Shown: positions 19,284 through 31,878 of the stretch, piece by piece
Position numbering within the stretch: position 1 is the first letter of the stretch
Layout: the number at the start of each line of letters is the position of its first letter
Assembly (NCBI GenBank): GCA_030638825.1
Contig: DAOWDU010000012.1
Coordinates: 1-32,416, forward strand
DNA from: a bacterium
GTDB lineage: Bacteria > Patescibacteriota > Minisyncoccia > JAHIHE01 > JAGLIN01
Length of the DNA stretch: 32,416 nt
Direction: 5' to 3'
Position numbers and translations under genes: made by a program
The notes under the pieces: model-generated
Databases searched by the model: none
Seen by the model: only the letters and a program-made list of their open reading frames with translations
Told to the model about the DNA's origin: nothing

Positions 19284-19420
19284 TGAAAGTGTGATATAAA
19301 GTATGGGTGTGTGGGATATTATTAAAATATACGGTATTTAGTATGATAAAGTTAATATTTGAAAATTATATCATTGAAAATTGATTGAAAATTAGAAATT
19401 AGAAATTGAAAATTTAGTCT
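19284..19420. other. Intergenic AT-rich stretch before tRNA-Lys
   Basis: Contains short degenerate direct repeats of TTGAAAAT and TTAGAAAT (about 19359-19417). They are too irregular and close-packed for a CRISPR array. The tRNA promoter must lie here, but I cannot pick a convincing -35/-10 pair. Confidence 0.5.
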
Positions 19421-19493
19421 GGGGCGTTAGCTCAGTTGGTAGAGCAACAGCCTTTTAAGCTGATGGTCACAGGTTCGAATCCTGTACGCCCCA
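19421..19493 (+). tRNA. tRNA-Lys(TTT)
   Basis: A complete cloverleaf can be drawn. The acceptor arms GGGGCGT and ACGCCCC pair perfectly, the D-stem is GCTC/GAGC, the anticodon loop CTTTTAA has anticodon TTT, and the T-arm contains GGTTCGAATCC. The discriminator base is A at 19493, and CCA is not encoded. Confidence 0.97.
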
Positions 19494-19497
19494 CCCA

Positions 19498-19579
19498 AAG
19501 CATATAAGCATGTAAACATTTAAACAAAATTTTGAAATCTCAACATGTTTATATGCTTAAATACTTACATGTTTATATG
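19498..19579. repeat. Inverted and direct repeats between the two tRNA genes
   Basis: AAGCATATAAGCATGT (19498-19513) is the near-perfect inverse of ACATGTTTATATGCTT (19543-19558), 14 of 16 positions. ACATGTTTATATG is repeated directly at 19567-19579. The spacer could fold into a hairpin and may mark processing of a two-tRNA transcript. Confidence 0.65.
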
Positions 19580-19583
19580 ACAA

Positions 19584-19657
19584 GGGCGCTTAGCTCAGTT
19601 GGCTAGAGCATCTCGTTTACACCGAGAGGGTCGGGGGTTCGAATCCCTCAGCGCCCA
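19584..19657 (+). tRNA. tRNA-Val(TAC)
   Basis: The acceptor arms GGGCGCT and AGCGCCC pair perfectly, the D-stem is GCTC/GAGC, the anticodon stem is TCTCG/CGAGA around loop TTTACAC with anticodon TAC, and the T-arm contains GGTTCGAATCC. The discriminator A is at 19657, and CCA is not encoded. Its 3' end is the left boundary of the defence island and is duplicated at 27828. Confidence 0.97.
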
Positions 19658-19669
19658 CAAGTTTAACTT
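19643..19669 (+). other. Left boundary repeat of defence island (tRNA-Val 3' end, attL-like)
   Basis: This 27-nt stretch covers the T-arm 3' side, acceptor 3' strand and trailer. It matches 27828-27854 at 23 of 27 positions, including an unbroken CAGCGCCCAC and a TTTAACT. Both copies are followed about 40 nt later by the same terminator motif. Attachment-site function is inferred. Confidence 0.6.
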
Positions 19670-19708
19670 AAAATTTATAACTCGTAATATTTTGTGTATA
19701 CCAAAAAA

Positions 19709-19737
19709 CCAGCTTCTATGTAGAGGTTGATTTTTTT
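19709..19737 (+). terminator. Terminator after the tRNA genes
   Basis: CAGCTTCTA (19710-19718) pairs with TAGAGGTTG (19721-19729) using two G-U pairs in RNA, followed by A and seven Ts. The motif recurs at 27890-27920. Confidence 0.65.
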
Positions 19738-19739
19738 AC

Positions 19740-19768
19740 TTGAATTATTACTGGTTTAATGGTAACAT
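19740..19768 (+). promoter_or_regulatory. Promoter of the restriction-modification operon
   Basis: The -35 is TTGAAT (19740-19745), the spacer 17 nt and the -10 TAACAT (19763-19768), 45 nt before the first start codon and right after the tRNA terminator. The four genes downstream have no room for other promoters between them. Confidence 0.5.
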
Positions 19769-19813
19769 AAGAGCAAGGAAAAGGGAGAGAGGATTTTGAG
19801 CTAAAATATAGTT

Positions 19814-20890
19814 ATGGATAAAAAATATTTAAACAAAATAATCAAGGGCGACTGTATAGAAGAATTAAAAAAGATGTCTGAAAATTCAGTTGATCTTATT
19901 TTTGCAGATCCGCCATATAATCTTCAATTAAAAAATGATCTATATCGTCATAATCAGACAAAGGTTAATGGAGTAAATGATAGATGGGATAAGTTTTCAT
20001 CTTTTGGGGAATATGATAAATTCACTTATGATTGGCTAAAAGAATGTAAAAGAGTATTAAAAAAAGATGGGGCAATTTGGGTTATTGGAAGCTATCATAA
20101 TATTTTCCGCGTTGGAAAAATTATACAAGATTTAGATTTTTGGATTTTAAACGATATTCAATGGATTAAAACAAATCCGATGCCCAATTTTATGGGAACT
20201 CGTTTTAATAATGCGCAAGAGACATTAATTTGGGCTTCTAAAAATCAAAAGTCAAAATTTACTTTTCATTACAAATCAATGAAGGCTTTTAATGATGACA
20301 AACAAATGCGAAGTGATTGGTATGTTCCTATTTGCAATGGAGGAGAAAGAATAAAAATAAACGGAGAAAAAGCACACTCAACGCAAAAACCAGAGGCGAT
20401 ACTTTATAGAATTATATTATCAACTTCAAATGTCGGGGATGTTATTTTAGATCCTTTTATGGGAAGCGGAACAACTGGAGCGGTTGCTAAAAAATTAAAA
20501 AGAAATTTTATTGGAATAGAAAAAGAAAGTTTTTATATTAAAATAGCTAATCAAAGAATTAAAAAAATAAAACCGCTTGATGATGAATTATTAACTTATT
20601 CAGTTGAAGAAAAAAAACCAAAAGTTCCATTTGGTAGTTTAATTGAAACTAAACTTATAAATGTCGGTGATTGTTTGTATTCTAAAAATGGAAAATATAA
20701 AGCCAAAATTTTAGCTGATGCGACTTTATTATGGAATAATAAAGTTGGCTCAATTCATAAAATAAGCGCTGAGATTTTAGGCAAAATTTCAAATAACGGC
20801 TGGACATATTGGTATGTAAAAGATAAAAAAGGCAATTTAATTCTTATTGACGAGATAAGAAATGAGTATATTAAAAAATTTTTAACTTAA
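19814..20890 (+). CDS. HinfI/CcrM-like DNA adenine methyltransferase with RAMA domain
   Basis: Beta-class N6-adenine methyltransferase: catalytic DPPY (32-35) comes before the SAM-binding DPFMGSGTTG (213-222). ECKRVLKKDGAIWVIGSYHNI and KAHSTQKPEAILYRIILS are conserved between them. Residues about 271-358 form a RAMA domain, starting VPFGSLIE and including IHKISAEILGKISNNGWTYW, as at the C-terminus of M.HinfI and CcrM. From memory, both length (358) and motif spacing are very close to M.HinfI, so a GANTC-type target is the best guess. It is first in a four-gene operon; the AIPR gene starts 5 nt after its stop. As the first protein made, it could protect host DNA before the nuclease appears. 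Confidence 0.93.
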   Translation: MDKKYLNKIIKGDCIEELKKMSENSVDLIFADPPYNLQLKNDLYRHNQTKVNGVNDRWDKFSSFGEYDKFTYDWLKECKRVLKKDGAIWVIGSYHNIFRVGKIIQDLDFWILNDIQWIKTNPMPNFMGTRFNNAQETLIWASKNQKSKFTFHYKSMKAFNDDKQMRSDWYVPICNGGERIKINGEKAHSTQKPEAILYRIILSTSNVGDVILDPFMGSGTTGAVAKKLKRNFIGIEKESFYIKIANQRIKKIKPLDDELLTYSVEEKKPKVPFGSLIETKLINVGDCLYSKNGKYKAKILADATLLWNNKVGSIHKISAEILGKISNNGWTYWYVKDKKGNLILIDEIRNEYIKKFLT

Positions 20891-20895
20891 AAAAT

Positions 20896-22722
20896 ATGGA
20901 ATATAAAATTGAACCAAATCAAAGTCATTTTGCAACAGTGCGAGAATATGTGGAAAAATACAAGAAAGATTATGAGCTAAGTTCTTCTGTGAGTAGTTTT
21001 TATTATTTTGTATTAAATTTATTTTTTGATTTAAACGATGAAGAGATAAAAAATTCTATTACTGATAATAATTTTTTAAAAAACGAAACGAAAGAGATAG
21101 GTAAAAAAATAGATTATGATCGTGGTATTGATGCAGTTTATATTAAAAATATGGAAACTAAAAAACCCGAGATACACCTATTTAATTTTAAATATACTGA
21201 AAATTTTGATAATACTAAAAGTAATTTTCCATCTTCGGAAATAGATAAAATTATAGGTTTCCTAACACCTCTTTTAAAAAAAGACGAAAATCTTAAAAAG
21301 GAAGTTAATTATGTTTTAGCTGACAAAATAAATGAAATAGATGATGAATTTAAGAAAGGAAATAATCCTAAAATATTTTTTCATTTGTGTTCAAATTTAT
21401 ATTTGCCATTAAAAACGGAAGAAGAAAATAGATTGAAAAATTTTTTTGAAGAAAAAGGACTTTTAGTGTTGGATTATATTTCCATGAACGAAATCGTGAA
21501 TCGTTTTATCATTAAAGATAGAATTAAAATAAATGCTAAAATTCGTTCTATTGGAGAAAATTATTTTGATAAATCAACAGGAGGAAATTTAAGAGCTTTG
21601 ATTTTAGAGGTAAAAGCAATTCATTTAATTAGAATGATTTTAAATGATTCTAATATTAGAAATGATGTTGATTTTTCAAATTATGATTCATTATCAGATG
21701 ATAAATATAAAATATTAGATGATGCTTTTGATGAAAATGTTAGAGTAGAACAAAAAGGAAAAATTAATCAGAATATAAAAGATACAGCATTAAATGAAAC
21801 AGAAAATTTTTATTTTTTCTATTATAATAATGGAATTACAATAACTTGTGATTCTGTTGATTATGACCCAATAACAGATACTTGCATTAAATTAGAAAAT
21901 CTACAAATTGTTAATGGTCAACAAACCATTAGGGCTTTATATGATGCTTTTAAGGAAAATCCAAAAAAAGTTGCAAATCTTGAAATTTTTTGCAGAATTT
22001 ATGAAATTAAAAACAAAGAAGAAAACAGAGAATTAAAAATAAAGATTGCCGAGTATACAAATAGTCAAAATCCAGTTAATACTAGAGACATAAGAGCAGT
22101 TGGTCAAACTCAAATTTTGTTAGAGCGACAATTTAAAACAAAAGGTTATTTTTATGAAAGAAAAAAGAATCAATACAAAGATCAACCAAAAGAAAAAAGA
22201 TTAGATGCTGAAAAAATAGGTCAAATGCTTATAAGTTTTTATAATGAAAAACCAGCAGTGGCTAAAAATACTAAACAAATTATTTTTGGAACAGAATATG
22301 AAAATGTTTTTTCTGAAGATATTACAGCAGATTCTATATTGTTGGTAAATGAAATTTTTAATTTTATTGATAAAAAAAGGAATGAAGAAGCAATTAAGTT
22401 AAAACAACAAGAAAAGGTTGAGCATTTTGATACATATATTCTTCATTGTTCTTATTATTTACTTTATATAATTAAAAAATTAGCAGATTATGAAAAAATA
22501 GATTTAAACATTGAGAATAAAAGTAAAATTATTAATTTGTATGATTCTGCTAAAAAAATAATTTTAGAAATTATTACCAATAAATTCAAAGATAAAAATG
22601 GAAAACTAGAAGAATTTCCAGCTTTTGGTCCTTATTTTAAATCCAATGAACTTAAAAAGAAATTTGAAGTTTTATATTTTGAGAATGAAGATGATCAAAT
22701 TTTAAAAAAATTCTTAACTTAA
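20896..22722 (+). CDS. AIPR-family (abortive infection phage resistance) protein
   Basis: The 608 residues carry the AIPR core: YYNNGITITC (309-318), LQIVNGQQTIRALYDA (336-351), AEYTNSQNPVNTRD (385-398) and FYERKKNQY (419-427). The N-terminal part has GIDAVYIK (77-84) followed by IHLFNFKY (93-100), an arrangement like Mrr/PD-(D/E)XK nucleases (Asp, then an N-x-K), so it may itself cut nucleic acid. AIPR proteins are known from plasmid-borne phage-resistance loci and often lie near methyltransferases. Here it sits inside the operon between the first methyltransferase and the endonuclease with 5-nt gaps on both sides, implying strict co-expression. Its trigger and target are unknown. Confidence 0.88.
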   Translation: MEYKIEPNQSHFATVREYVEKYKKDYELSSSVSSFYYFVLNLFFDLNDEEIKNSITDNNFLKNETKEIGKKIDYDRGIDAVYIKNMETKKPEIHLFNFKYTENFDNTKSNFPSSEIDKIIGFLTPLLKKDENLKKEVNYVLADKINEIDDEFKKGNNPKIFFHLCSNLYLPLKTEEENRLKNFFEEKGLLVLDYISMNEIVNRFIIKDRIKINAKIRSIGENYFDKSTGGNLRALILEVKAIHLIRMILNDSNIRNDVDFSNYDSLSDDKYKILDDAFDENVRVEQKGKINQNIKDTALNETENFYFFYYNNGITITCDSVDYDPITDTCIKLENLQIVNGQQTIRALYDAFKENPKKVANLEIFCRIYEIKNKEENRELKIKIAEYTNSQNPVNTRDIRAVGQTQILLERQFKTKGYFYERKKNQYKDQPKEKRLDAEKIGQMLISFYNEKPAVAKNTKQIIFGTEYENVFSEDITADSILLVNEIFNFIDKKRNEEAIKLKQQEKVEHFDTYILHCSYYLLYIIKKLADYEKIDLNIENKSKIINLYDSAKKIILEIITNKFKDKNGKLEEFPAFGPYFKSNELKKKFEVLYFENEDDQILKKFLT

Positions 22723-22727
22723 AAATT

Positions 22728-23591
22728 ATGCAATACAAAAAATTTAAAAACATTTTTAACGAAACTATTTTTGAAGAATCAAAAGCGGTTTTGATTGAAA
22801 AAATAGCAAAATATCCGAATAGATATATTGGTTTATTCAGACCAACAAAACCAAAAGCAAAAATTCTACAAAATTTATTACAATCTCATGAGATTCGTTT
22901 TGGCGATGCTTTTGAGGAGGCTATTGAAGAATATTTTAAGGAATTTGGTTATCAAATTTTAGGAAAGAAATTTGTTAATGGCGATAATGACGAACTAAAT
23001 ATTGATCAATGTTTCAAAACTAAAGACAAAGTTTGTTTTATTGAACAAAAAATTAGAGACGATCACGATTCTACTAAAAAAAGAGGACAGATAGAAAATT
23101 TTGAGAAAAAGCTAAATGAGATGATTGGCAAATATGGTGAGAAAAACCTTGTTGGCATCTTTTATTTTATTGATCCTGATTTACGAAAAAATAAAAATTA
23201 TTATAAAGCCGAACTTGAAAAAATGTCTCGGGATTATGGTGTCGAGATTTATTTATTTTACGGAGTTGAGCTATTTGATCTTTTGAAGCAGGAGAATGTT
23301 TGGGATGAAATATTGAAATATTTAGAGCAGTGGAAAAAAGAGATTCCTGATTTTCCAGAAACAAATTTTGATATTGATGCTAAAAACTCATTTGATGAAA
23401 TAAAAGATTTGTCGCCGAGTCTTTATAGAAAAATTTTTCAAGATGATATTATTTTTAACGAAATAGTTTTAACGATTTTTCCAGAGAAGAAAACCTTAAA
23501 ACTATTACTTGATTATTTCAAGGAAAAATCACCCGAAAAAACTATTTATCAAACAATTGCTAATTTACTTAAAGAAAGATTAGAAAATTAA
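22728..23591 (+). CDS. Type II restriction endonuclease, PD-(D/E)XK type
   Basis: The 287 residues show a nuclease core. An acidic helix RFGDAFEEAIEEYF (57-70) is followed by D93 in ELNIDQCF, then E106-Q-K108 in VCFIEQKIRDDHDSTKKRGQ. D93...E106-x-K108 is a standard PD-(D/E)XK active site, and the RDDHDSTKKRGQ stretch after it is strongly conserved-looking and probably contacts DNA or shapes the active site. GIFYFIDPDLRKNKNYY is a further core strand. I cannot name the exact enzyme family. Its place between an AIPR gene and a methyltransferase, with 5-nt gaps, makes it the cutting partner of the operon. The recognition site is probably that of the flanking methyltransferases (GANTC-like), which is inference. 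Confidence 0.82.
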   Translation: MQYKKFKNIFNETIFEESKAVLIEKIAKYPNRYIGLFRPTKPKAKILQNLLQSHEIRFGDAFEEAIEEYFKEFGYQILGKKFVNGDNDELNIDQCFKTKDKVCFIEQKIRDDHDSTKKRGQIENFEKKLNEMIGKYGEKNLVGIFYFIDPDLRKNKNYYKAELEKMSRDYGVEIYLFYGVELFDLLKQENVWDEILKYLEQWKKEIPDFPETNFDIDAKNSFDEIKDLSPSLYRKIFQDDIIFNEIVLTIFPEKKTLKLLLDYFKEKSPEKTIYQTIANLLKERLEN

Positions 23592-23596
23592 TTTTT

Positions 23597-24379
23597 ATGA
23601 TTTCTCAAAACGAGATTATACACGACGATTGCATAAAAGTTTTAAAAACTTTTTCTGATAATTCTTTTGATTTAATTTTTGCTGATCCGCCGTATAATTT
23701 GCAATTGCCGAAAAATAAAAAATTGATTCGCGCTGATGGTTCAGAAGTAATTCCTGTTAGCGATAGTTGGGATAAATTTGAAAGTTATGAAGAATATGAT
23801 ATTTTCACAGAAAATTGGATAAAAGAATGTCAAAGAATTTTAAAACCAACAGGAACAATTTGGATTATGGGAATGTATCACAATATTTTTCGTGTTGGTA
23901 AAATTATGCAAGATTTAGGATTGTGGTTTTTGAATGATGTAATTTGGGTAAAAATTGACGCTATGCCCAACTTTAACGGCAGAAGATTTACAAATAATCA
24001 TGAAACTTTAATTTGGGCGGTAAAAAATAAAAATTGCAAAAATTATACTTTCAATAATGAATTTTTAAAACAAATGAATAATGGATTGCAAATGAAAGAT
24101 ACTGATTGGATTTTTAAAATTTGTAAAGGGAGAGAAAGATTAAAAGATGGAAATGGAATAAAAGCACATCCTACACAAAAACCACTTAAATTAATTCAGC
24201 AAGTTTTACTTTCCGCAAGCAGAAAAGGTGATTTAGTCTTAGACCCATTTATGGGAAGCGGAACAACCGCAATTGTTGCCAAAGCGCTTGGCAGAAATTG
24301 GGTTGGTATTGAGAAAGAAAAAAAGTATGTTGACTTAGCGAATATGAGAATTAAAAAATATACAGAACAAGCAAGATAG
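23597..24379 (+). CDS. Second beta-class DNA adenine methyltransferase (no RAMA domain)
   Basis: DPPY (30-33) precedes DPFMGSGTT (216-224), the beta-class order, and the body aligns throughout with the first methyltransferase of the operon: ECQRILKPTGTIWIMGMYHNIFRVGKI, MPNFNGRRFTNNHETLIWA and AHPTQKP. At 260 residues it ends just after the catalytic domain and lacks the RAMA extension. The two genes are therefore diverged paralogues. A two-methyltransferase set is typical when the target is asymmetric, each enzyme modifying one strand; alternatively this one may be a replacement or counter-methylase. It is last in the operon and followed by an AT-rich hairpin. Confidence 0.93.
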   Translation: MISQNEIIHDDCIKVLKTFSDNSFDLIFADPPYNLQLPKNKKLIRADGSEVIPVSDSWDKFESYEEYDIFTENWIKECQRILKPTGTIWIMGMYHNIFRVGKIMQDLGLWFLNDVIWVKIDAMPNFNGRRFTNNHETLIWAVKNKNCKNYTFNNEFLKQMNNGLQMKDTDWIFKICKGRERLKDGNGIKAHPTQKPLKLIQQVLLSASRKGDLVLDPFMGSGTTAIVAKALGRNWVGIEKEKKYVDLANMRIKKYTEQAR

Positions 24380-24436
24380 TTTAGATAAAATATAAAATTT
24401 TTTCTCCACACAAGGACTGGTTTGTGTCCAGTTCTC

Positions 24437-24465
24437 AAAGTTTTTAAAACACAAAAAACTTTTTT
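24437..24465 (+). terminator. Possible terminator after the restriction-modification operon
   Basis: AAAGTTTTT (24437-24445) can pair with AAAAACTTT (24454-24462), ending in a run of six Ts. The stem is almost all A-T, so strength is doubtful. The 251-bp gap around it holds no gene; a further short ACTGG/CCAGT inverted pair lies at about 24416-24432. Confidence 0.4.
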
Positions 24466-24573
24466 ATTCTTAAAAACAAAAAAATCTCGAATTCTCGGGA
24501 CAAATCTGTTCCAGCGGAAAAGATTGGGGATATGAGACAATAAATAACCTTGTAAATAATCATAACTATTTAC

Positions 24574-24602
24574 TTGACAGGAATTTTTACACTTGCTACA
24601 AT
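24574..24602 (+). promoter_or_regulatory. Promoter of the HTH-Panacea/toxin pair
   Basis: A perfect -35 TTGACA (24574-24579), 17-nt spacer and -10 TACAAT (24597-24602). The start codon at 24631 lies 28 nt downstream, leaving a leader of about 20 nt. Autoregulation by the HTH protein here is likely but not shown. Confidence 0.75.
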
Positions 24603-24630
24603 AAAAATGTAATTGATAATTCAAAAAACT

Positions 24631-25413
24631 ATGACTACTTTTTTAAAAAAACTTCGGCAACAAAATAATATTAGTCAAGAGTTTTTGGCAAAAAAAATTA
24701 GCGTGTCGCGTCCGACTTATGTTCAAATTGAAAAAGGAGAACGCAAAATGCTTGTGGAAGAAGCGCAAAAATTGGCGCGGTTTTTTGGTTTGTCATTAGA
24801 AGATTTTTTGGCAGGCAGAGAAAATACAAAGCCAAAAGTAAAACTTGAGAAATCCGCAAAACGAATAAAACCAAAAAAGCAAAAGCAAGAAATGCGAATT
24901 TCAGTTCCACAGGAAAAAGTTGAAAAATTTAAAGAAACGCTTTTGTATATTCTGGAACGAATCGGCGCGCGTCCAAATATTGGCGAAGCTGTCGTATGTA
25001 AACTGATGTATTTTATTGATTTTGATTATTATGAAAAATACGAGGAGCAACTTATCGGCGCGAAATATATTAAAAACCACTTTGGACCGACTCCTGTCGC
25101 TTTCCCTGAGATTATAAAACAAATGGAAAAAGATGAAGATTTAATTCCTTTTGTAAAAAAATATTTTCAACACGATCAAAAAAAATATTTACCGCGCAGA
25201 TCTGCTGACCTGTCAAATTTTTCAGCTCAAGAAAAAGAATTAATTGATTGGGAAATAGAGCGGTTTAAAGATTTTAACGCCAGTAAAATGAAGGAATATT
25301 CCCATCAGGATGTACCGTGGATTGGCGCTGATAATTTACAACCAATTAATTACGAAGCGGTTTTTTGCCGAACGCCGGAATTTTCCGTAAGACAATACGA
25401 CGATGAAATATGA
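24631..25413 (+). CDS. HTH-XRE plus Panacea (DUF4065) antitoxin
   Basis: Residues about 4-60 form an XRE-type helix-turn-helix (LRQQNNISQEFLAKKISVSR then YVQIEKGERK). A basic linker (about 65-90) follows. Residues about 102-230 match the Panacea/SocA-like domain: KLMYFIDFDYYEKYEEQLIGA and KNHFGPTPVAFPEI. Panacea domains serve as antitoxins that neutralise diverse toxins in PanAT systems. The HTH fusion suggests it also represses its own promoter. I chose the ATG at 24631 because the TTG at 24613 would leave almost no leader from the promoter. The last 11 nt overlap the toxin gene, so translation is coupled. Confidence 0.85.
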   Translation: MTTFLKKLRQQNNISQEFLAKKISVSRPTYVQIEKGERKMLVEEAQKLARFFGLSLEDFLAGRENTKPKVKLEKSAKRIKPKKQKQEMRISVPQEKVEKFKETLLYILERIGARPNIGEAVVCKLMYFIDFDYYEKYEEQLIGAKYIKNHFGPTPVAFPEIIKQMEKDEDLIPFVKKYFQHDQKKYLPRRSADLSNFSAQEKELIDWEIERFKDFNASKMKEYSHQDVPWIGADNLQPINYEAVFCRTPEFSVRQYDDEI

Positions 25414-25783
25414 AGAAACAAAAGAATTTACACGAGATTTTAAAAAACTGCTGAAGAAATTTGCATCATTAGTTGAAGATTTAGAAGTGAATAAACAATA
25501 TAGAATTGAACTTTTTCATTGTAAAGAAATAGATAGTAGAAGTATTTTTGAAATTCAAAGAGCTGGAAATACGGACGGGCTTAAATTTTATAAAGTTAAA
25601 AAATTTCAATGTAAAAGTCTAAAGGGCCGCGGAGCAAAAAGTGGTATTCGTGTTACTTATGCTTATTTTCCAACCGAACAAAAAATTGTGTTTTTAGAAA
25701 TATATTTTAAAGCCAAACAAGAAAATGAAAATAGACAAAGAATAGCGGATTTTATAAAAATAGAAATAGAGAATCAGGATTGA
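25403..25783 (+). CDS. RelE/ParE-like toxin
   Basis: The 126 residues have the RelE-type layout: N-terminal helices with TRDFKKLLKKF, then strands rich in basic residues (CKSLKGRGAKSGIRVTYAYF) and the closing strand KIVFLEIYFKAKQ followed by a short helix. RelE relatives are ribosome-dependent mRNA nucleases; ParE relatives act on gyrase. I cannot decide between them from the sequence. The gene overlaps the Panacea antitoxin by 11 nt, supporting a two-gene toxin-antitoxin unit. A strong terminator follows about 35 nt after the stop. Confidence 0.75.
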   Translation: MKYEETKEFTRDFKKLLKKFASLVEDLEVNKQYRIELFHCKEIDSRSIFEIQRAGNTDGLKFYKVKKFQCKSLKGRGAKSGIRVTYAYFPTEQKIVFLEIYFKAKQENENRQRIADFIKIEIENQD

Positions 25784-25818
25784 TTTTAATTTTTTGAACG
25801 AGAATTAAAATTAAGCAG

Positions 25819-25853
25819 AAAATGCTTAAAATATAATTTTAAGCATTTTTATT
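25819..25853 (+). terminator. Strong terminator after the toxin gene
   Basis: A perfect 14-bp stem, AAAATGCTTAAAAT (25819-25832) with ATTTTAAGCATTTT (25836-25849), closes a 3-nt loop and runs into Ts. The A-rich 5' side and T-rich 3' side would let it act in both directions. Confidence 0.85.
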
Positions 25854-25871
25854 ACAAAAATTTGTAGGTTC

Positions 25872-25900
25872 TTGACTTGTGGATAACTATTTGCTATACT
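25872..25900 (+). promoter_or_regulatory. Promoter of the ATPase/RloB pair
   Basis: The -35 is TTGACT (25872-25877), the spacer 17 nt and the -10 TATACT (25895-25900), preceded by TGC. The start codon is 30 nt downstream. Confidence 0.7.
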
Positions 25901-25930
25901 CTAAGCAGATAATAATTAAACAATAAAAGT

Positions 25931-27145
25931 ATGATCCACTCATTTTCATGCAAAAATTTTTATTCTTTCAGCGATCTTGCGACTGTTAGTTTTGTTGTGA
26001 ATGAAAAAGCGCCAGATAATCATGGTTATTTTTTAGCGCCCTCTGAAGCGCGGCTTTCTAAAGCTGAAACTGTAATAGGTCCCAACGCCTCCGGTAAAAC
26101 TAATTTGTTAAAAGTTTTGCCGTTTATGAAATGGCTGATAGCTGATTCATCCAATATCAATCCAACGGCGCCATTGCCTGTAAAACCGTTTATGTTTGGC
26201 GGACAAAAAAATAAGCCGGTTGAGCTTTCGGCTGATTTTGAAATTGACGGCGATATTTATACTTACAGTTTTGTTTTAGATGAAGAAAAAATTATTTCAG
26301 AAGAGTTGAAAGTTAAAAATAAAACAAAGCAGAAAATGACGAGTAAAAAGATTTTTTCTCGCGAGCGGGACAGTGAAAGTAAATTATATAACTTGGACGA
26401 TAAAAATTTTAATTTACCAAAGGGGTTTGAAAATTCAATACGACCTAACGCCAGCATTGTAAGTGTTGCTGTTCGGTTGGGACATAAAGAGAGCTTAAAG
26501 TTTTTTGATTATTGGAAAAAAATGGAAACCAATGTCATTGAAGCTGGCTGGATAGGCGATCATCTTTTGCCTAATGCGAGCCAGCATTTAATTGAGGCGT
26601 TGGATTTTTATAGCGAAAGCAAAAACGAAACTCTAAAAAAAGAGGCTGAAAAACTTTTGTCTCGTTTTGATCTTGGCTTGGAATCATTTAAAATAGAAAA
26701 AGAAAAGAAAGAAAACGGTTTTTCAATGAATGTAAAAGTCGCCCATTCTTTTAGCGGTCGGACTGAATATCTTCCAATGCAATATGAATCTTCCGGCACG
26801 AAACAGCTTTTTATTTTATTAAAAACTATTCTTTTGGTATTAGCCAATGGCGGTGTCGCAGTGCTTGATGAGTTTGACGTTAATCTGCATCCGGAAATAG
26901 TTTTATCTCTGTATGAATTATTTATTCATCCGGAAACAAATCCCAACAACGCCCAATTATTTCTTAGCACTCATAGTCACTTGGTTTTAAACGAACTGGA
27001 TAAATATCAAATTATTCTCACAGAAAAAAACAACAAAGGACAAAGTGAATCATGGCGATTGGATGATGTGTCAGGCGTTCGCGCTGATGATAATTATTAC
27101 GCGAAATATATTGCCGGTGCGTATGGAGCCGTTCCTAAATTATAA
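25931..27145 (+). CDS. AAA family ATPase, RloA/OLD-like
   Basis: An ABC/SMC-type ATPase of the AAA_15/AAA_21 group. It has Walker A GPNASGKT (50-57), a signature-like ESSGT (286-290), Walker B VAVLDEFD (309-316) and an H-loop STHS (346-349). The region between (about 90-280) is the family-specific lid and helical insertion. Unlike classical OLD proteins it has no C-terminal TOPRIM domain; instead the next gene, 12 nt downstream, encodes a separate TOPRIM-like RloB protein. This two-gene format resembles RloAB and, more loosely, the PARIS ATPase-TOPRIM pair, both linked to phage defence. The ATPase would sense or scaffold and the partner would act as the nuclease. Confidence 0.88.
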   Translation: MIHSFSCKNFYSFSDLATVSFVVNEKAPDNHGYFLAPSEARLSKAETVIGPNASGKTNLLKVLPFMKWLIADSSNINPTAPLPVKPFMFGGQKNKPVELSADFEIDGDIYTYSFVLDEEKIISEELKVKNKTKQKMTSKKIFSRERDSESKLYNLDDKNFNLPKGFENSIRPNASIVSVAVRLGHKESLKFFDYWKKMETNVIEAGWIGDHLLPNASQHLIEALDFYSESKNETLKKEAEKLLSRFDLGLESFKIEKEKKENGFSMNVKVAHSFSGRTEYLPMQYESSGTKQLFILLKTILLVLANGGVAVLDEFDVNLHPEIVLSLYELFIHPETNPNNAQLFLSTHSHLVLNELDKYQIILTEKNNKGQSESWRLDDVSGVRADDNYYAKYIAGAYGAVPKL

Positions 27146-27157
27146 GGTAAAACAAAT

Positions 27158-27688
27158 ATGGCAAGAAGTAATCCAAATAAAAAGAAAAGACGACAGGCGA
27201 GTAAAACCCTTCTTATATTTGGGGAGGGTTTTAACGATGGAATGTTTTTAAAGCATTTAAAAGCGTTATATTCTTTTAACGCAGGTGTTGCGATAACCGT
27301 CAAAAAGGGGAAAGGCGGTAATGCAAAAAGTATTGTTATTGACGCAATAAAAATTCCCGGCGCTTTTGACAGAAAAGTAGTTGTTCTTGATAACGATAAG
27401 CCCAAGAGTGAGATGATCGAAGCCAGAAGAGAAGCAAAGGGCAGGAGTATTGAATTATTAGAGAATACCCCTTGTTTAGAATATTTACTTATATCAATTA
27501 TTAATGAAAGGCCAAAAGAAAAAAATTCTAGTTGGTGTAAAAATGAATTTGAGTCGAAATATCTTAATAGAAAAAAACGAAGAGAATCAAATGAATATAA
27601 TAAATTGTTTCCAAAAAAATTATTGGATTCTAAAAGATCTACTATATCAGAATTAAATAAATTGATTTCAATTATGGAGGGGGAGTAA
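27158..27688 (+). CDS. RloB-like TOPRIM protein
   Basis: The 176 residues fit RloB: a basic start (residues 1-16), then TLLIFGEGFNDGMFLKHL with the acidic E23 of a TOPRIM fold, VVVLDNDKP (74-82) with the Asp-x-Asp pair, and PCLEYLL (105-111), the RloB counterpart of the cysteine/phenylalanine-rich segment. TOPRIM acidic residues bind metal for phosphodiester cleavage. It follows its ATPase partner by 12 nt and is the last gene before the island's right boundary. RloB homologues are commonly 200 residues or more, so this is on the short side. Nuclease activity is inferred. Confidence 0.78.
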   Translation: MARSNPNKKKRRQASKTLLIFGEGFNDGMFLKHLKALYSFNAGVAITVKKGKGGNAKSIVIDAIKIPGAFDRKVVVLDNDKPKSEMIEARREAKGRSIELLENTPCLEYLLISIINERPKEKNSSWCKNEFESKYLNRKKRRESNEYNKLFPKKLLDSKRSTISELNKLISIMEGE

Positions 27689-27725
27689 ATTATAAAGTTA
27701 TATTTCAACATTATAACAAAAATAA

Positions 27726-27842
27726 TTAGTTCTCTAATAACCTCTCCGCCCTCTTCAACTTCCCCTCGACTCTCTCCCAATTCTCCAAAATCCCAACCCA
27801 AACCACCGGGAAATTGTTCCCAACTACATCCCGCAGCGCCCA
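27726..27842 (-). pseudogene. Possible C-terminal gene remnant in a pyrimidine-rich tract
   Basis: On the minus strand this stretch reads as a 38-codon open segment ending in a stop (27726-27728), with a helix-like end NWERVEGKLKRAERLLEN. It is preceded by a stop and so has no start. It is much richer in C (plus strand) than any neighbour and nearly G-free, unlike structured RNA. I do not recognise the protein. It ends inside the island's right boundary repeat, so it may be a relic of the integrated element. A chance open frame cannot be excluded. Confidence 0.3.
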
Positions 27843-27854
27843 CTATTTTAACTC
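27828..27854 (+). other. Right boundary repeat of defence island (tRNA-Val 3' end copy, attR-like)
   Basis: A 27-nt copy of the tRNA-Val 3' end and trailer (19643-19669), 23 of 27 identical. No 5' tRNA half precedes it, so it is not a tRNA gene. As at the tRNA, it is followed by a TAACT-rich spacer (48 versus 51 nt) and the CAGCTTCTAT terminator motif. The whole 338-bp gap from 27689 to 28026 contains only this repeat, the remnant, a terminator and a promoter. Confidence 0.6.
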
Positions 27855-27889
27855 ACAACAAATAACTTATAACCCGCGACCCTTTTAAA

Positions 27890-27920
27890 TTCAGCTTCTA
27901 TTTGAAGGTTGAGTTTTTTT
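27890..27920 (+). terminator. Terminator at the right end of the island
   Basis: TTCAGCTT (27890-27897) pairs with AGGTTGAG (27906-27913) with G-U pairs, followed by seven Ts. It shares CAGCTTCTAT and AGGTTGA with the tRNA terminator at 19709. Confidence 0.6.
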
Positions 27921-27931
27921 ATTGTTTTTTA

Positions 27932-27960
27932 TTGATAAACAAAACATTCAATGCTATAGT
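27932..27960 (+). promoter_or_regulatory. Promoter of the ECF sigma factor gene
   Basis: The -35 is TTGATA (27932-27937), the spacer 17 nt and the -10 TATAGT (27955-27960), with TGC before the -10. The start codon at 28027 leaves a leader of about 60 nt. Confidence 0.6.
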
Positions 27961-28026
27961 TCATTTGAAATAAAACAATGATTTTATTGTAGTAACTATT
28001 GCAGTGGTCAATAAATATAAACTTAT

Positions 28027-28581
28027 ATGTCTCAGTTAGAAAATCAATTAACAGACGAAGAAATTGCGCGTCTTGTTCAGTCTGGCGAAATAGAATCATT
28101 TGATATCTTGATTGAAAGATACGAAGCAAAAATGAAACGCTATGCCAAGAGATTTCTTTTTGATTATGAGGAAGCAGAAGATCTCGCGCAGGAAGTTTTT
28201 CTAAAAGTTTATATCAATATTCAAAGTTTTAAGACCTCAAAGAAATTTTCTTCGTGGATCTATCGTATTGCTCACAATGAATTTATCAACGCAATTAAAA
28301 AGAAAGGCAAGGAGCCGATTTCATTTTTTGATTCTGATGTTCTTTTCCCGCATCCCGTTTCTAAAGAAAACACGGATAAGCAAATAACCGAATCGGAGCT
28401 TCGCGCGATGCTTGATAAATGCATTAATAAATTGAAGCCCAAATATCGCGAGCCAATTGTCCTCTATTATTTTGAAGAATTAAGCTATAAAGAAATCGCG
28501 GATATTTTGTGTATTCCTATTTCTACAGTCGGGATTAGATTACGAAGAGGTAAAAAAATAATGCAATCCCTACTTCATTAA
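28027..28581 (+). CDS. ECF-type RNA polymerase sigma factor
   Basis: The 184 residues have the two-domain ECF layout. Sigma-2 (about 20-95) contains FDILIERYEAKMKRYAKRF, DYEEAEDLAQEVFLKVY and WIYRIAHNEFINAIKK. Sigma-4 (about 130-184) contains LKPKYREPIVLYYFEELSYKEIADIL and STVGIRLRRGKKIM, the -35-reading helix-turn-helix. It would redirect core RNA polymerase to a stress or envelope regulon. The gene has its own housekeeping-type promoter. The next gene encodes a three-helix membrane protein whose N-terminal tail could hold the sigma factor, so the two probably form a sensing pair. Confidence 0.93.
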   Translation: MSQLENQLTDEEIARLVQSGEIESFDILIERYEAKMKRYAKRFLFDYEEAEDLAQEVFLKVYINIQSFKTSKKFSSWIYRIAHNEFINAIKKKGKEPISFFDSDVLFPHPVSKENTDKQITESELRAMLDKCINKLKPKYREPIVLYYFEELSYKEIADILCIPISTVGIRLRRGKKIMQSLLH

Positions 28582-28594
28582 TTTTAGAAGCCAT

Positions 28595-28694
28595 AGAAGC
28601 TAAGCCTCTCCACACTAACTTTAATATTACAGCTTATTTAGACATAGAACGCAATACTTTAAATAACAAATAGATGAGTAGAGGCTTAGCTTCT
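28595..28694. mobile_element. MITE-like element with 15-bp terminal inverted repeats
   Basis: AGAAGCTAAGCCTCT (28595-28609) and AGAGGCTTAGCTTCT (28680-28694) are perfect inverse copies around 70 nt of AT-rich sequence without a gene. No target duplication is visible. The arm matches the arm of the palindrome inside argS at 12 of 15 positions. Alternatively it could fold as a long hairpin between the sigma factor and the downstream membrane protein genes. Confidence 0.55.
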
Positions 28695-28717
28695 TTAAAT
28701 ATCCTAAATCATCATTT

Positions 28718-29446
28718 ATGAATAACACTACACAAAAATCATCAACCGCTAGAAAAGTGCTTGGCAAAATAAAAAATGATCAAATTAAAATGCGGTCCAA
28801 AACATACTTTGTTTTAAAAAGCGTTTTGACTATCTTTAGCGTTTTTCTTGTCGCCTTTTTTATTTTGTATTTAACCAGTTTTATTCTTTTTGCGCTGCGG
28901 GCAAGCGGGGCGTGGTATCTTCATGGTTTTGGTTTTTATGGCTTGAGAGCTTCTTTTATATTATTGCCATGGCTATTGATAATAATAGCAACAGTTTTAC
29001 TTGTGGTTTTGGAAATACTTGTCAAACATTTTTCCTTTGCCTATCATCGCCCTATTCTTTATTCAATATTGGGTATTATTATTTTTACGATTTCGGGAAG
29101 TTTCGTAATTGATAAAGCGCAGTTTCATACATGTCTTTTTCAGAAAGCCCAAGAAGGGCGTTTGCCTGTAATGGGAAATTTTTATCGTAATTTGGGCATA
29201 GAAAAAAATCGCAATGTCTGCCGCGGCATTGTTCTCAAAACAATAAATAATAATTTTCAAATTAAAACGCCGCGAGGCAAAGTTTTGAATGTAAGCATTA
29301 CTTCCGAGACACAATTTTCTAACGGAGCAGATATTAAGAAAGATGATATAATTATAGTTTTAGGAAAACGAAATAATGGCGAAGTTCAAGCTATCGGTGT
29401 TCGCAAAATTGATGATGAGTTAAATTCTTTTCCACGAATGAAATAA
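28718..29446 (+). CDS. Three-helix membrane protein with C-terminal OB-like domain, putative anti-sigma partner
   Basis: A basic N-terminal tail of about 32 residues (VLGKIKNDQIKMRSKTYF) faces the cytoplasm. It is followed by three membrane helices (about 33-58, 79-103 and 111-132) and an outer domain. Residues about 168-230 (GIVLKTINNNFQIKTPRGK ... DDIIIVLGKRNNGEV) resemble small DUF5666/OB-like beta-barrels. The gene directly follows the ECF sigma factor, the standard place for an anti-sigma factor, and the topology (cytoplasmic tail, membrane, outer sensor) fits. No classical zinc anti-sigma motif is present, so this would be an unrecognised type. The assignment is inference from context. 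Confidence 0.75.
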   Translation: MNNTTQKSSTARKVLGKIKNDQIKMRSKTYFVLKSVLTIFSVFLVAFFILYLTSFILFALRASGAWYLHGFGFYGLRASFILLPWLLIIIATVLLVVLEILVKHFSFAYHRPILYSILGIIIFTISGSFVIDKAQFHTCLFQKAQEGRLPVMGNFYRNLGIEKNRNVCRGIVLKTINNNFQIKTPRGKVLNVSITSETQFSNGADIKKDDIIIVLGKRNNGEVQAIGVRKIDDELNSFPRMK

Positions 29447-29453
29447 AACCCAA

Positions 29454-29490
29454 TCTTGTTTGTAGTAATATATATAAACACTAAACAAGA
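29454..29490 (+). promoter_or_regulatory. Inverted repeat upstream of the Shine-Dalgarno of the next gene
   Basis: TCTTGTTT (29454-29461) and AAACAAGA (29483-29490) are perfect inverse copies, the right arm touching the ribosome site AAGGGGGTGA. A hairpin here could control translation; an operator is the alternative. Confidence 0.35.
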
Positions 29491-29505
29491 AAGGGGGTGA
29501 GAAAA

Positions 29506-29913
29506 ATGAACAAAGCGATAAAAATTGGCGGGACACTTGCGGTTGTTATGGCAACAGCATTTACAATTTCGTCAGCGTTTGCTTATCAGGGTGATTATTC
29601 TAAGCAGGGACCCGCGCAATCGGCAGAAAGACATACGGCAATGACAGAGGCGATGGAGAATAATGATTATGAAGCGTGGAGCGAATTAATGGCAGATCGC
29701 GGACGAGTTGCTAAAATTATCAACGCGGAAAACTTCGCGCAATTTGCCGAAGCGCATGAATTAGCTCATAATGGCGATTTGAAAAGAGCGGATGAAATTA
29801 GGAAAGAATTGGGATTAAAAACTCGCGACGGTGAAAAAATTGGGGCAAAATTTGGCGGAGGACAAGGATATGGAAAAATGAATAGTGGAAATTACAAACA
29901 TAATGATTTGTAA
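29506..29913 (+). CDS. Small exported protein, unknown
   Basis: A clear signal peptide (about 1-26, with SSAFA before the mature start YQGDY) precedes about 109 mature residues. The core is helical: HTAMTEAMENNDYEAWSELM, then ENFAQFAEAHELAHNGDLKRADEIRKELGL, and a Gly/Asn-rich tail. The pattern is reminiscent of small CpxP-like or metal-stress periplasmic helical proteins, but I cannot assign a family. The ATG at 29506 is chosen over the GTG at 29497 because a strong Shine-Dalgarno, AAGGGGGTGA, sits 5 nt before it. It lies third after the ECF sigma factor and may be one of its targets. A palindromic terminator follows. Confidence 0.8.
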   Translation: MNKAIKIGGTLAVVMATAFTISSAFAYQGDYSKQGPAQSAERHTAMTEAMENNDYEAWSELMADRGRVAKIINAENFAQFAEAHELAHNGDLKRADEIRKELGLKTRDGEKIGAKFGGGQGYGKMNSGNYKHNDL

Positions 29914-29931
29914 TAATTCATTAGAACCGAA

Positions 29932-29956
29932 AAAGAAGAGGCGCCTCTTCTTTCTT
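29932..29956 (+). terminator. Palindromic terminator
   Basis: AAAGAAGAGGC and GCCTCTTCTTT (29932-29953) form a perfect 22-nt palindrome, with outer AACC/GGTT matches and Ts on the 3' side. It is much more GC-rich at its centre than its surroundings. Confidence 0.7.
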
Positions 29957-30006
29957 TGGTTATAACATAATAAATTAAATTGTTTAATTAAATCTAAAAT
30001 ATTGTA

Positions 30007-30411
30007 ATGAAAAAAATAATTTTAATAATAAGCGCAGTTCTTTTTGGGGCGGTTGCAGGATATACTATTAAGTGTTCCACGACAGAAATAGAAACGCAAA
30101 AAACTATATTTAAAGAGGAAATAATGCCTAAACACGAAGAGCATGAAGAACATATGGAAGAAGAGCACGAGCACGATCATTTTGTGGAAATTGAAGGAAG
30201 CGCGATGAAAGCTTTAAGTATAAAAGAAGTTGCTAATCTTTGGGAAATTGACGCGGAAATTCTCTTGTCAAAAATTATAGAGGAATTTAAGTTGCAAGGA
30301 GATTATACTGTGAATACAATTTTAGAAGAAATAAGAGACGCGGAATATAAATTTTCTCCAGCAATAATTAAAGATCTTGCGGAAGAAATAAAAAATCAAA
30401 ACGCGAATTAA
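30007..30411 (+). CDS. Exported His/Glu-rich protein, probable metal binder
   Basis: An N-terminal hydrophobic segment (about 3-19) exports or anchors the protein; C23 follows but is not in a good lipobox. Residues 43-58 hold six His among Glu (H43, H46, H49, H54, H56, H58), a likely soft site for Zn, Ni, Cu or Fe. The C-terminal part (about 68-130) has ALSIKEVANLWEIDAEILLS, a helical repeat seen at the ends of some membrane redox proteins. It is encoded 13 nt before the DUF4405-like gene, so the two probably work together in metal handling or electron transfer. The metal is unknown. Confidence 0.75.
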   Translation: MKKIILIISAVLFGAVAGYTIKCSTTEIETQKTIFKEEIMPKHEEHEEHMEEEHEHDHFVEIEGSAMKALSIKEVANLWEIDAEILLSKIIEEFKLQGDYTVNTILEEIRDAEYKFSPAIIKDLAEEIKNQNAN

Positions 30412-30424
30412 ATTTCAAAGCATT

Positions 30425-30982
30425 ATGAAAAAAATAATTCTTTCTTTACTTTTATTAATTTCAATTCCGACAACAGCTTTGGCTTGGGATGATTGTCCTT
30501 ATGGCGAAATTAATTGTCCGTATCCCGGAGATTGCAGTAGATATATTGATACAGACGGTGATGAAATATGCGATCATTCTCAGCCGGCTCCTGAAGACAG
30601 GAATATTGAAATAACAAATACGCAAACAATAGAAGATAAAAATTTAATAGCAAATAACAAACAGTCTGCGACAACTTATCATCTTTTGCCGATTTCACTG
30701 TTTTTAATTTTGGTATATTTTATCACTCACATTTTGTCTAAGAAAAAAATCATCAGCGTTGTTAATCACAGAAAAATTTGGAATTTTTTATTGTTAATCT
30801 CGTTTTTAATTTCCGGCTTGCTGGGAATTTTCTTAATTATAAAAATCAATTTTGGCATCACAATTCCTCTGCCGTTCAATACTTTATTCTGGCATGTTGA
30901 AATTGGCATCGCGATGTTTGTAATTTCAATATTTCATACTTTATGGCACTGGGCATATTTTAAGAGGATGTTTAAAATATAA
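30425..30982 (+). CDS. DUF4405-like membrane protein with Cys/Asp-rich outer segment
   Basis: A signal peptide (about 1-20, ALA before WDD) precedes CPYGEINCPYPGDCSRYIDT and DGDEICD, a Cys-rich calcium-type loop. One membrane helix lies at about 88-105 and two more at about 120-140 and 158-178. His residues H115, H157, H171 and H175 are placed as in DUF4405/cytochrome b561-like heme proteins (VNHRKIWN, LFWHVEIG, FHTLWHWAYF). It could pass electrons across the membrane using heme. It is coupled to the His-rich gene 13 nt upstream. Heme binding is inferred from residue placement. Confidence 0.75.
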   Translation: MKKIILSLLLLISIPTTALAWDDCPYGEINCPYPGDCSRYIDTDGDEICDHSQPAPEDRNIEITNTQTIEDKNLIANNKQSATTYHLLPISLFLILVYFITHILSKKKIISVVNHRKIWNFLLLISFLISGLLGIFLIIKINFGITIPLPFNTLFWHVEIGIAMFVISIFHTLWHWAYFKRMFKI

Positions 30983-31000
30983 ATTTTTTTGTTATTGCTA

Positions 31001-31030
31001 TTGACAATTTTTTTTGTTTGTGATATTAAT
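31001..31030 (+). promoter_or_regulatory. Promoter of the two-helix membrane protein gene
   Basis: A perfect -35 TTGACA (31001-31006), 17-nt spacer and -10 TATTAA (31024-31029). A good Shine-Dalgarno, AAGGAGG (31071-31077), follows before the TTG start at 31087. Confidence 0.65.
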
Positions 31031-31086
31031 AGTGTAGCGTTTATTAAAAAACGAAAAATAAAAAAATGCTAAGGAGGAATTTTTAG

Positions 31087-31824
31087 TTGAGTTTCATTGA
31101 AAATTTAAAGAAAGTGCGTAAAATATGCGACTCCAATAAGATTGTTTGGATTATCGCAATCTTGAGTGTTATAGTTGGAATGTCTATAGCACTTCATTAT
31201 GCGGAATACATAGATGATGTGCCTGAGAGTGTATCATATAGTAATAATTTTTCAGTTCCCAGTGAGTCAATTCTTAAAGAATTTTCTGACATAAGAATTG
31301 AAATTGCTGAAGATGGATCTGATCTCATTTATGGCAAAGGAGGAATTCCAATAGCTTTCAAAACTCTTAATCCAGAAGAGTTTGAAATCCAGGAATTTTC
31401 AAAGTATTATTATACAATTCAAAATAATAATGCTAGCGGATTTGCAAAAGTAGAGTTAACTCTCTGCGGTATCAGTGGAAGAGATGCCTATCAAACTTTT
31501 TACGCATATGACGCAGGTCGTATTATTGCTGAAGAAAATTCATTTGGACCGTTGGATTTTGGTACAATAAAACCCGAGTATGATATTGTGAATTTTGAGT
31601 TCAAAAAAATAGGAGAGATTATTAATTTCACTATTAATTTTGAACACAATAGCAAATCCACATGGAATGAGGCTGTTATAGGGAATTTCGTTATATTTAG
31701 TGTTCTGATCTTTTTTATTATCGTCATCCTAGACATTATTTTATTTATGTCGCTTGGTGTGATAATATTTATAGCAGAATATAATAAATATAGAAATAGA
31801 AATGACAAACAAGCTGAAGAGTAG
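31087..31824 (+). CDS. Two-helix membrane protein, unknown (TTG start)
   Basis: The start is TTG at 31087: AAGGAGG lies 9 nt upstream, and a TAG directly before it (31084-31086) rules out any earlier in-frame start. The 245 residues have a membrane helix at about 18-36, an outer beta-rich domain (about 45-200, with FSVPSESILKEFSDIRIEI and DAYQTFYAYDAGRII), a second helix at about 203-232 and a charged cytoplasmic tail. No family was recognised. The stop codon lies inside the stem of the terminator that follows. It stands alone with its own promoter and terminator. Confidence 0.78.
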   Translation: MSFIENLKKVRKICDSNKIVWIIAILSVIVGMSIALHYAEYIDDVPESVSYSNNFSVPSESILKEFSDIRIEIAEDGSDLIYGKGGIPIAFKTLNPEEFEIQEFSKYYYTIQNNNASGFAKVELTLCGISGRDAYQTFYAYDAGRIIAEENSFGPLDFGTIKPEYDIVNFEFKKIGEIINFTINFEHNSKSTWNEAVIGNFVIFSVLIFFIIVILDIILFMSLGVIIFIAEYNKYRNRNDKQAEE

Positions 31825-31846
31825 AGAACTACTCTTCTATTTTTTT
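31816..31846 (+). terminator. Terminator overlapping the stop codon
   Basis: GAAGAGTAG (31816-31824) pairs perfectly with CTACTCTTC (31829-31837) around AGAA, followed by TAT and six Ts. The TAG stop is part of the stem. Confidence 0.85.
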
Positions 31847-31872
31847 GAAAAACCTAAAATATATGCTATCAT
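31845..31872 (+). promoter_or_regulatory. Possible argS promoter
   Basis: TTGAAA (31845-31850), 16-nt spacer ending in TGC, and TATCAT (31867-31872). The start codon is only 6 nt after the -10, so the transcript would be nearly leaderless. Confidence 0.45.
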
Positions 31873-31878
31873 AAAACT

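Follow-up and report, generated by a model that had tools for sequence, protein, structure and literature searches.

How does a gene of the AIPR/AbiU family come to lie inside a restriction-modification (R-M) operon, and does it belong to the R-M system that surrounds it? AIPR is an early named, little understood family of phage-defence proteins, and that it often keeps company with R-M genes has been on record since 2008, with no mechanism given. We followed this question at a four-gene operon on contig DAOWDU010000012.1 (assembly GCA_030638825.1) of a bacterium from the Patescibacteriota, class Minisyncoccia, with a small, streamlined genome (1.145 Mb in 57 contigs). The whole analysed stretch of this contig, 32,416 nucleotides (nt) long, is called the window below. 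The operon encoded a DNA methyltransferase (MTase; M1), an AIPR protein, a restriction endonuclease (REase; R) and a second methyltransferase (M2). Comparison of its gene junctions suggested that AIPR most likely entered the existing M1/R junction of an M1-R-M2 operon, copying the junction to both sides.

The duplicated junction around AIPR

Four head-to-tail genes at exact 5-nt gaps, forming an R-M operon in which an AIPR gene is embedded, had been predicted from the DNA letters alone. Domain searches bore out the embedded gene, and the coordinates of the open reading frames (ORFs) bore out the arrangement: all four lay on the + strand, started with ATG and were separated by exactly 5 nt (Table 1). 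The M1/AIPR and AIPR/R junctions were two copies of a single 36-nt direct repeat, identical at 32 of 36 positions (89%). Each copy took in codons for KKFLT at the end of one gene, its stop codon, the 5-nt spacer and the start of the following gene, whose ATG and initial codons read MEYK in AIPR (copy 1) and MQYK in R (copy 2). In the ATG register the two junction copies shared 31/36 bases. Aligned on their start codons, they agreed at 24 of 27 bases, and the other gene-start pairs tested in the window reached at most 19 of 27; among random 24-mer pairs from the operon, 1 in 200,000 reached 21/24. The equal spacing at the first two junctions exceeded chance. The third junction (R/M2) was also 5 nt long, yet it held no copy of the repeat (18/27 against the AIPR/R junction).

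The N-terminus of the HpyAIV family, to which R belonged, was MxYxxF, and since this is the native start of that family, the downstream repeat copy was native to R. AIPR was flanked by duplicate copies of a junction, and the simplest account was an insertion at M1/R. Recombination between the two copies would bring back a continuous M1-R junction. The equal 5-nt spacing, which the original prediction had taken to imply co-evolution, was no proof of it, because two of the three gaps copied one junction and were most simply read as the trace of an insertion. The AIPR gene had the lowest GC content of the operon (0.229, compared with 0.27-0.30 for the R-M genes), and its third-position GC was 0.118.

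Table 1. Features of the window, and the proteins preceding AIPR at three other loci of the class (L180, L181 and L184).
Feature	Location	Strand	Support
tRNA-Lys(ttt) and tRNA-Val(tac), left edge of accessory island	19420..19658	+	
M1, beta-class N6-methyladenine (m6A) DNA methyltransferase, CcrM/HinfI type, C-terminal RAMA, 358 amino acids (aa)	19814..20890	+	PF01555, PF18755
Direct repeat copy 1 (36 nt), M1/AIPR junction	20873..20908	+	repeat search
AIPR/AbiU-family protein, 608 aa	20896..22722	+	PF10592, PDLC02357
Direct repeat copy 2 (36 nt), AIPR/R junction	22705..22740	+	repeat search
R, HpyAIV-family Type II restriction endonuclease, 287 aa	22728..23591	+	NF045832, PDLC03497
M2, second CcrM-like m6A methyltransferase, without RAMA, 260 aa	23597..24379	+	PF01555
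Helix-turn-helix (HTH)-Panacea (SocA-like) antitoxin	24613-25413	+	PF13274 6.7e-17, PF01381 3.6e-15
Small 126-aa protein without family match, 11-nt overlap with Panacea antitoxin gene	25403-25783	+	
AbiLi/AbiLii (RloA/RloB-like ATPase pair)	25931..27688	+	PDLC02335 5.7e-74, PDLC02338 3.8e-15
299-329-aa protein before AIPR	L180:3598-4497	-	no Pfam match
299-329-aa protein before AIPR	L181:7601-8590	-	no Pfam or PADLOC match
299-329-aa protein before AIPR	L184:4508-5407	+	no Pfam or PADLOC match

The R-M enzymes and the AIPR protein

M1 carried an N6_N4_Mtase domain (PF01555, 3.4e-67) and a RAMA domain (PF18755, 1.9e-14) and matched the MTase_II model PDLC03216 at 8e-170. M2 had the same MTase domain (1e-66) and was 57% identical to M1 across 250 aa, and the DPPY and DPFMGSGT motifs were intact in both. 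Neither reached the 830-bit cut-off of the CcrM equivalog model NF050803 (549.8 bits for M1 and 375.3 for M2). By these scores, both enzymes were of the CcrM/HinfI type and were not equivalogs of the Caulobacter CcrM. R scored 263 bits against the HpyAIV model NF045832 (cut-off 160), covering profile positions 1-267 of 269, and 1.3e-94 against the REase_II model PDLC03497. In an alignment with 11 members from Campylobacterota it retained the family-conserved catalytic block LN.DQ...(F/L)IEQK.RDDHDSTKK, and it was 55% identical to one of the Campylobacterota members (L148). HpyAIV is the GANTC system of Helicobacter pylori (PMC3936762), and since R belongs to its family, the window system was predicted probably to recognise GANTC as well.

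The window thus shared with the HpyAIV systems an REase above the cut-off with all conserved catalytic residues, as well as an adjacent CcrM/HinfI-type MTase with a C-terminus of RAMA length; M1 was 52% identical to the MTases adjoining HpyAIV-family REases in Campylobacterota. It differed from the 18 Campylobacterota loci, which had one MTase and no AIPR, in having two MTases and an AIPR between M1 and R. We rejected avoidance of GANTC as a sign of long residence of the system, as the signal was not specific to the window's genome region (0.68, compared with 0.67 in relatives). No relatives of R were found in viral contigs (single-query scan), phages or plasmids, nor any of AIPR in a single-query scan of viral contigs, and a PDB sequence search with AIPR or the REase gave no match.

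The AIPR domain (PF10592) was matched at 6.6e-41 and 141.4 bits, well above the gathering score of 25, with the core at residues 278-562. A full-length hit to PADLOC's AbiU model PDLC02357 was obtained as well (1.1e-40, residues 16-563). The protein was compared with the AbiU/AIPR family of lactococcal abortive infection (Abi); the AIPRs found in this analysis were only about 20-45% identical to it. Classical AbiU acts as a single Abi gene, unlike the window member, which sat within an R-M operon.

A nuclease-like N-terminus of AIPR had been part of the original prediction, and it was borne out by conservation and by a structure model. Residues ~1-210 formed a PD-(D/E)XK-like domain with the motifs D75, D79 and N97-x-K99. 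In an alignment of 45 AIPR sequences, D79 was present in all 45 and K99 in 44; position 97 held Q or N in 43. The AlphaFold2 model had a predicted local distance difference test (pLDDT) score of 91.8 at full length and 93.7 for residues 1-210, and its N-terminal domain was alpha/beta, with strands at 80-84, 92-99, 159-166 and 190-195. D79 lay at the start of the strand 80-84, and N97-F98-K99 ended the strand 92-99. According to the model, the AIPR N-terminus carries a PD-(D/E)XK signature of the QxK/NxK variant and is a predicted nuclease. A HEPN domain has been assigned to AIPR N-termini in the available part of Makarova et al. 2012 (PMC3506569). For the window protein such an all-alpha domain was rejected on the modelled strands bearing the PD-(D/E)XK motif (pLDDT 93.7), and its N-terminus points to a fold of the DNA-nuclease type rather than to an RNase (HEPN).

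AIPR and R-M genes in other genomes

Relatives of AIPR were collected from one genome-collection scan and a scan of the window's class, and their neighbourhoods were annotated. Outside annotated records R-M genes were detected by local profile searches, so that these counts are a lower bound. For the HpyAIV family, a set of 249 genomes was drawn from the phylum to which a Sulfurimonas relative belongs; 19 had a family member over the cut-off, and 18 loci were taken with 5 kb of flank on each side (one contig was shorter).

None of these 18 HpyAIV operons, all from genomes other than the window's, had an AIPR; every one was a plain R with one MTase. No other genome in the sample of the window's own phylum had an HpyAIV-family REase above the cut-off. 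The phylum sample also contained seven DpnII loci at full length (one on a 3.4-kb contig), all without an AIPR. Judged by this survey, AIPR was not part of the HpyAIV nuclease's system, because all 18 sampled operons did without it; nor was AIPR present in the majority of operons sharing the REase family, as a fixed M-AIPR-R-M system would have it. A further comparison concerned locus L016, from Candidatus (Ca.) Paceibacterota Tobar13m-G46, where AIPR lay between Dam and DpnII. L190 and L191 had Dam-DpnII-MTase without AIPR, and their proteins were 64-78% identical, gene by gene, to those of L016. Thus AIPR was an optional addition that the R-M genes did not need.

On the other hand, the lineage of the window's AIPR kept to R-M operons. 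Seven of the nine rows of its clade adjoined R-M genes (support 100/99), or seven of eight when long branches were left out (support 98/100), and the R-M label clustered on the AIPR tree (4 changes against 11.5 after shuffling, with 0/500 shuffles as low). The partners in the clade were of the HpyAIV, DpnII, AlwI and another REase_II type, together with an MT-A70 MTase. Since the R-M type varied but the lineage's attachment to R-M operons persisted, AIPR was, on this phylogenetic evidence, not a mere chance neighbour of R-M genes. The refuting check put forward with the original prediction received a divided answer: the absence of AIPR from the 18 HpyAIV operons and from the phylum's DpnII operons spoke against a part of this nuclease's system, and the fidelity of the AIPR lineage to R-M operons spoke against a chance neighbour.

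The architecture most similar to the window's was the Dam-AIPR-DpnII-MTase of L016, which shared with it the order M-AIPR-R-M, the slot of AIPR and the AIPR clade. The same order and clade were found in Sulfurimonas BM502 (L137/L136), as Dam-AIPR-small PD-(D/E)XK-like protein-DpnII-small protein-MTase; here AIPR was split over two contig ends, so that the join was inferred, and Dam was frameshifted in the assembly. The ordered set that had been proposed from the window was thus found elsewhere with DpnII, in Sulfurimonas across a contig break. Both loci differed from the window in having R and both MTases of other families (DpnII, Dam/D12 and a divergent N6_N4 MTase), directed at GATC and not GANTC, and Sulfurimonas also had two extra small genes unlike the window. 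One of these, between AIPR and DpnII (L136:428-991, + strand), encoded a 187-aa weakly PDDEXK_11-like protein, so that the Sulfurimonas operon, AIPR aside, may encode two nucleases.

Other arrangements included AIPR-Dam fusion-AlwI in a Clostridia genome, Dam-CcrM-like-DpnII-AIPR on a Staphylococcus cohnii plasmid, MTase-small gene-REase_II-AIPR in a member of the window's taxonomic order (L179) and an MT-A70 MTase preceding AIPR in Nitrosospira. The AIPRs of these four, like those of L016 and Sulfurimonas, fell in one clade with the window's. In Acaryochloris (L017:6010-7771, + strand), an AIPR 44% identical to the window's was broken by stop codons and had no R-M neighbours; it was a decaying copy. 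Outside the clade, a census of Pfam and PADLOC neighbours at the 27 loci first labelled solitary found a few R-M genes, a lower bound, as its counts covered the top families. AIPRs without any R-M gene nearby did exist, for example RE2010, whose record reads 'prevents superinfection'.

A profile search of 384 genomes of the window's class found an AIPR in nine, at 11 loci in total. Ten of these, the window and L179 among them, adjoined R-M genes, both Type II and Type I-like, and one was solitary (L182). At L180, L181, L183 and L184 an MTase came before AIPR, and in three of the four a D12-type MTase followed it. Between MTase and AIPR, L180, L181 and L184 had a protein of 299-329 aa carrying RGVDFFINGISFDQK; at L183 the gene in this endonuclease-like slot was different or broken. 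The shared sequence was suggestive of PD-(D/E)XK restriction enzymes of an undescribed family, and on this reading the order at L180 and L184 was M-R-AIPR-M. AIPR was accompanied by a helicase and a fused MTase-specificity subunit at L185 and L187, by a MutH/Sau3AI-type nuclease and a C5 MTase at L188, and by a C5 MTase, a gene of no assigned family and a Vsr-like gene at L186. A distant member of the phylum (L195:3216-9694, + strand) had a Type III Mod-AIPR-Res set in which AIPR overlapped both neighbours. Gaps at L184 were 3-5 nt, and genes also overlapped at L188. As a small control, the defence family GmrSD_N adjoined no R-M gene in the same relatives (0/4 loci with flanks).

Possible roles of AIPR in the operon

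The account that we favoured, with middling confidence, was that an M1-R-M2 operon gained AIPR as a self-contained, co-expressed second defence effector acting outside the restriction reaction. M1 and M2 would methylate the A of GANTC and protect the host, and R would cut unmethylated GANTC. AIPR would be a nuclease by virtue of the PD-(D/E)XK-like domain at its N-terminus, with the C-terminal AIPR domain exerting control, and might act as a second layer on phages surviving the Type II cutting, most likely on phage DNA whose bases are modified or on replication intermediates. A comparable pairing is the BREX (bacteriophage exclusion) system on pEFER, which is encoded with the Type IV GmrSD enzyme BrxU (PMC8565348). 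The likeness is one of working only, a second nuclease beside a methylation-based system catching the escaping phages: the nuclease of BrxU is HNH, and the window AIPR is PD-(D/E)XK-like with no significant profile match to GmrSD_N. A bolder extension, possible but tentative, is that the AIPR clade represents a portable nuclease module which forms a second layer, has specialised in R-M operons and attacks phage DNA that the endonuclease cannot cut. Such a module would slot between the MTase and REase of unrelated Type II systems and keep its place as specificities swap, other AIPRs would slot likewise into Type I-like and Type III systems, and it would work with any methylation-based distinction of self and non-self.

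Several observations weighed against the second-effector account. Only the window's operon showed the duplicated-junction footprint: at the junctions tested in L016, L179, L180 and L184 identity was at most 20/36, compared with 31/36 in the window, and duplication as a general rule was rejected. The position that is usually E or Q was N97 in the window, a minority variant, so that catalysis by AIPR was not certain. Foldseek against the PDB gave no significant match (best E 0.095 for the N-terminal domain and 0.96 for the whole protein). The top weak matches, none of them significant, included Mus81-Eme1, XPF, Hef, FANCM, Nt.BspD6I, Card1 and EcoT38I, which we take to be of the PD-(D/E)XK superfamily. 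The hhalign comparison of AIPR with GmrSD_N was not significant either (E 0.34 and 0.43), with AIPR IVNGQQT aligned to GmrSD_N VLDGQQR, and for this reason AIPR was not filed under a GmrSD/DndB superfamily. Moreover, the lasting pairing of AIPR and R-M genes across R-M types could equally mean that AIPR interacts functionally with some property that every R-M system shares.

Alternatively, AIPR could be the abortive arm of a co-evolved two-layer system, sensing R-M failure through unprotected or cut DNA or an anti-restriction protein and killing or stalling the cell. That close AIPRs keep to R-M operons, whose REase/MTase types number at least five, would fit this, as would the tight packing at L184, the overlaps at L195 and L188, and the history of the AIPR/AbiU family in abortive infection, as given in the available part of PMC3506569. 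But orthologous R-M operons existed without AIPR (L190 and L191), as did 18/18 HpyAIV operons, and many AIPRs had no R-M genes nearby, so that we consider this reading unlikely. The frequency of AIPR without R-M genes suited instead the idea of passenger cargo, that is, an autonomous AIPR gaining only the operon promoter and the addictive stability of R-M genes, with no functional complementarity. The insertion footprint, which suggested that AIPR arrived after the M1/R junction existed, pointed the same way, and so did the location of the operon, a 12-kb accessory island by tRNA-Lys/Val that housed two further defence units. However, R-M company in 7/8 clade rows and 10/11 class loci was not expected of pure cargo, AIPR recurred between M and R with unrelated REases, and none of the four GmrSD_N loci tested in these relatives had an R-M gene beside it; mere cargo is thus also improbable in our judgement.

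Far less probable still was a DndB-like regulator that represses its own operon and sets the expression of R relative to M. DndB regulates phosphorothioate modification (PMC4507180, as far as that text was available), and the four-gene operon had no separate gene for a control protein. Foldseek matches of the C-terminal part of AIPR in a viral library, to GmrSD_N, ParB/GmrSD-like and DNA-sulfur-modification-associated proteins (E ~0.03, probability 0.92-0.97), were weak, and the modelled likeness agreed weakly with the reported DndB relation. DndB itself (PF14072) was not found among 37 relatives. A nuclease-like N-terminal domain with a near-invariant motif would be unexpected in a repressor, AIPRs without R-M genes have nothing comparable to regulate, and most related R-M operons lacked AIPR and were evidently regulated anyway.

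AIPR within an R-M operon, as in the window, agreed with earlier reports. The available parts of Iyer 2008 (PMC2292703) and Makarova 2012 (PMC3506569) state that AIPR occurs in R-M operons and that the association is frequent, and describe MORC-type systems and Type III R-M in this connection; Prevotella Pin25611FIII is a Type II operon with AIPR and a Z1-domain protein, according to the available part of PMC5608340. A compact Type II M-AIPR-R-M operon with specificity swapped across phyla was not described in those parts of the three papers, and neither were the junction-duplication footprint and a PD-(D/E)XK N-terminus of AIPR. The locus shows a possible origin of the AIPR/R-M pairing, namely insertion at a gene junction leaving a 36-nt duplication, and it offers comparisons of R-M operons of the same kind with and without AIPR. 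The question whether Abi and R-M genes cooperate or merely cluster thereby becomes directly testable, and layered defences can be seen in a single operon even in small, streamlined genomes.

The operon was part of a larger accessory island of about 12.2 kb (window 19420-31878), which extended from the tRNA-Lys/Val genes to the gene at 31879. In the relatives G004-G007 (L222, L220, L218 and L221), tRNA-Lys followed a Band_7 gene, and the homologue of the 31879 gene came within a few kb. Besides the R-M/AIPR operon, the island held the Panacea unit, outside the four-gene operon, and the AbiL pair. The Panacea antitoxin and the overlapping 126-aa protein were likely a toxin-antitoxin pair, and the stretch was a defence island at tRNA genes.

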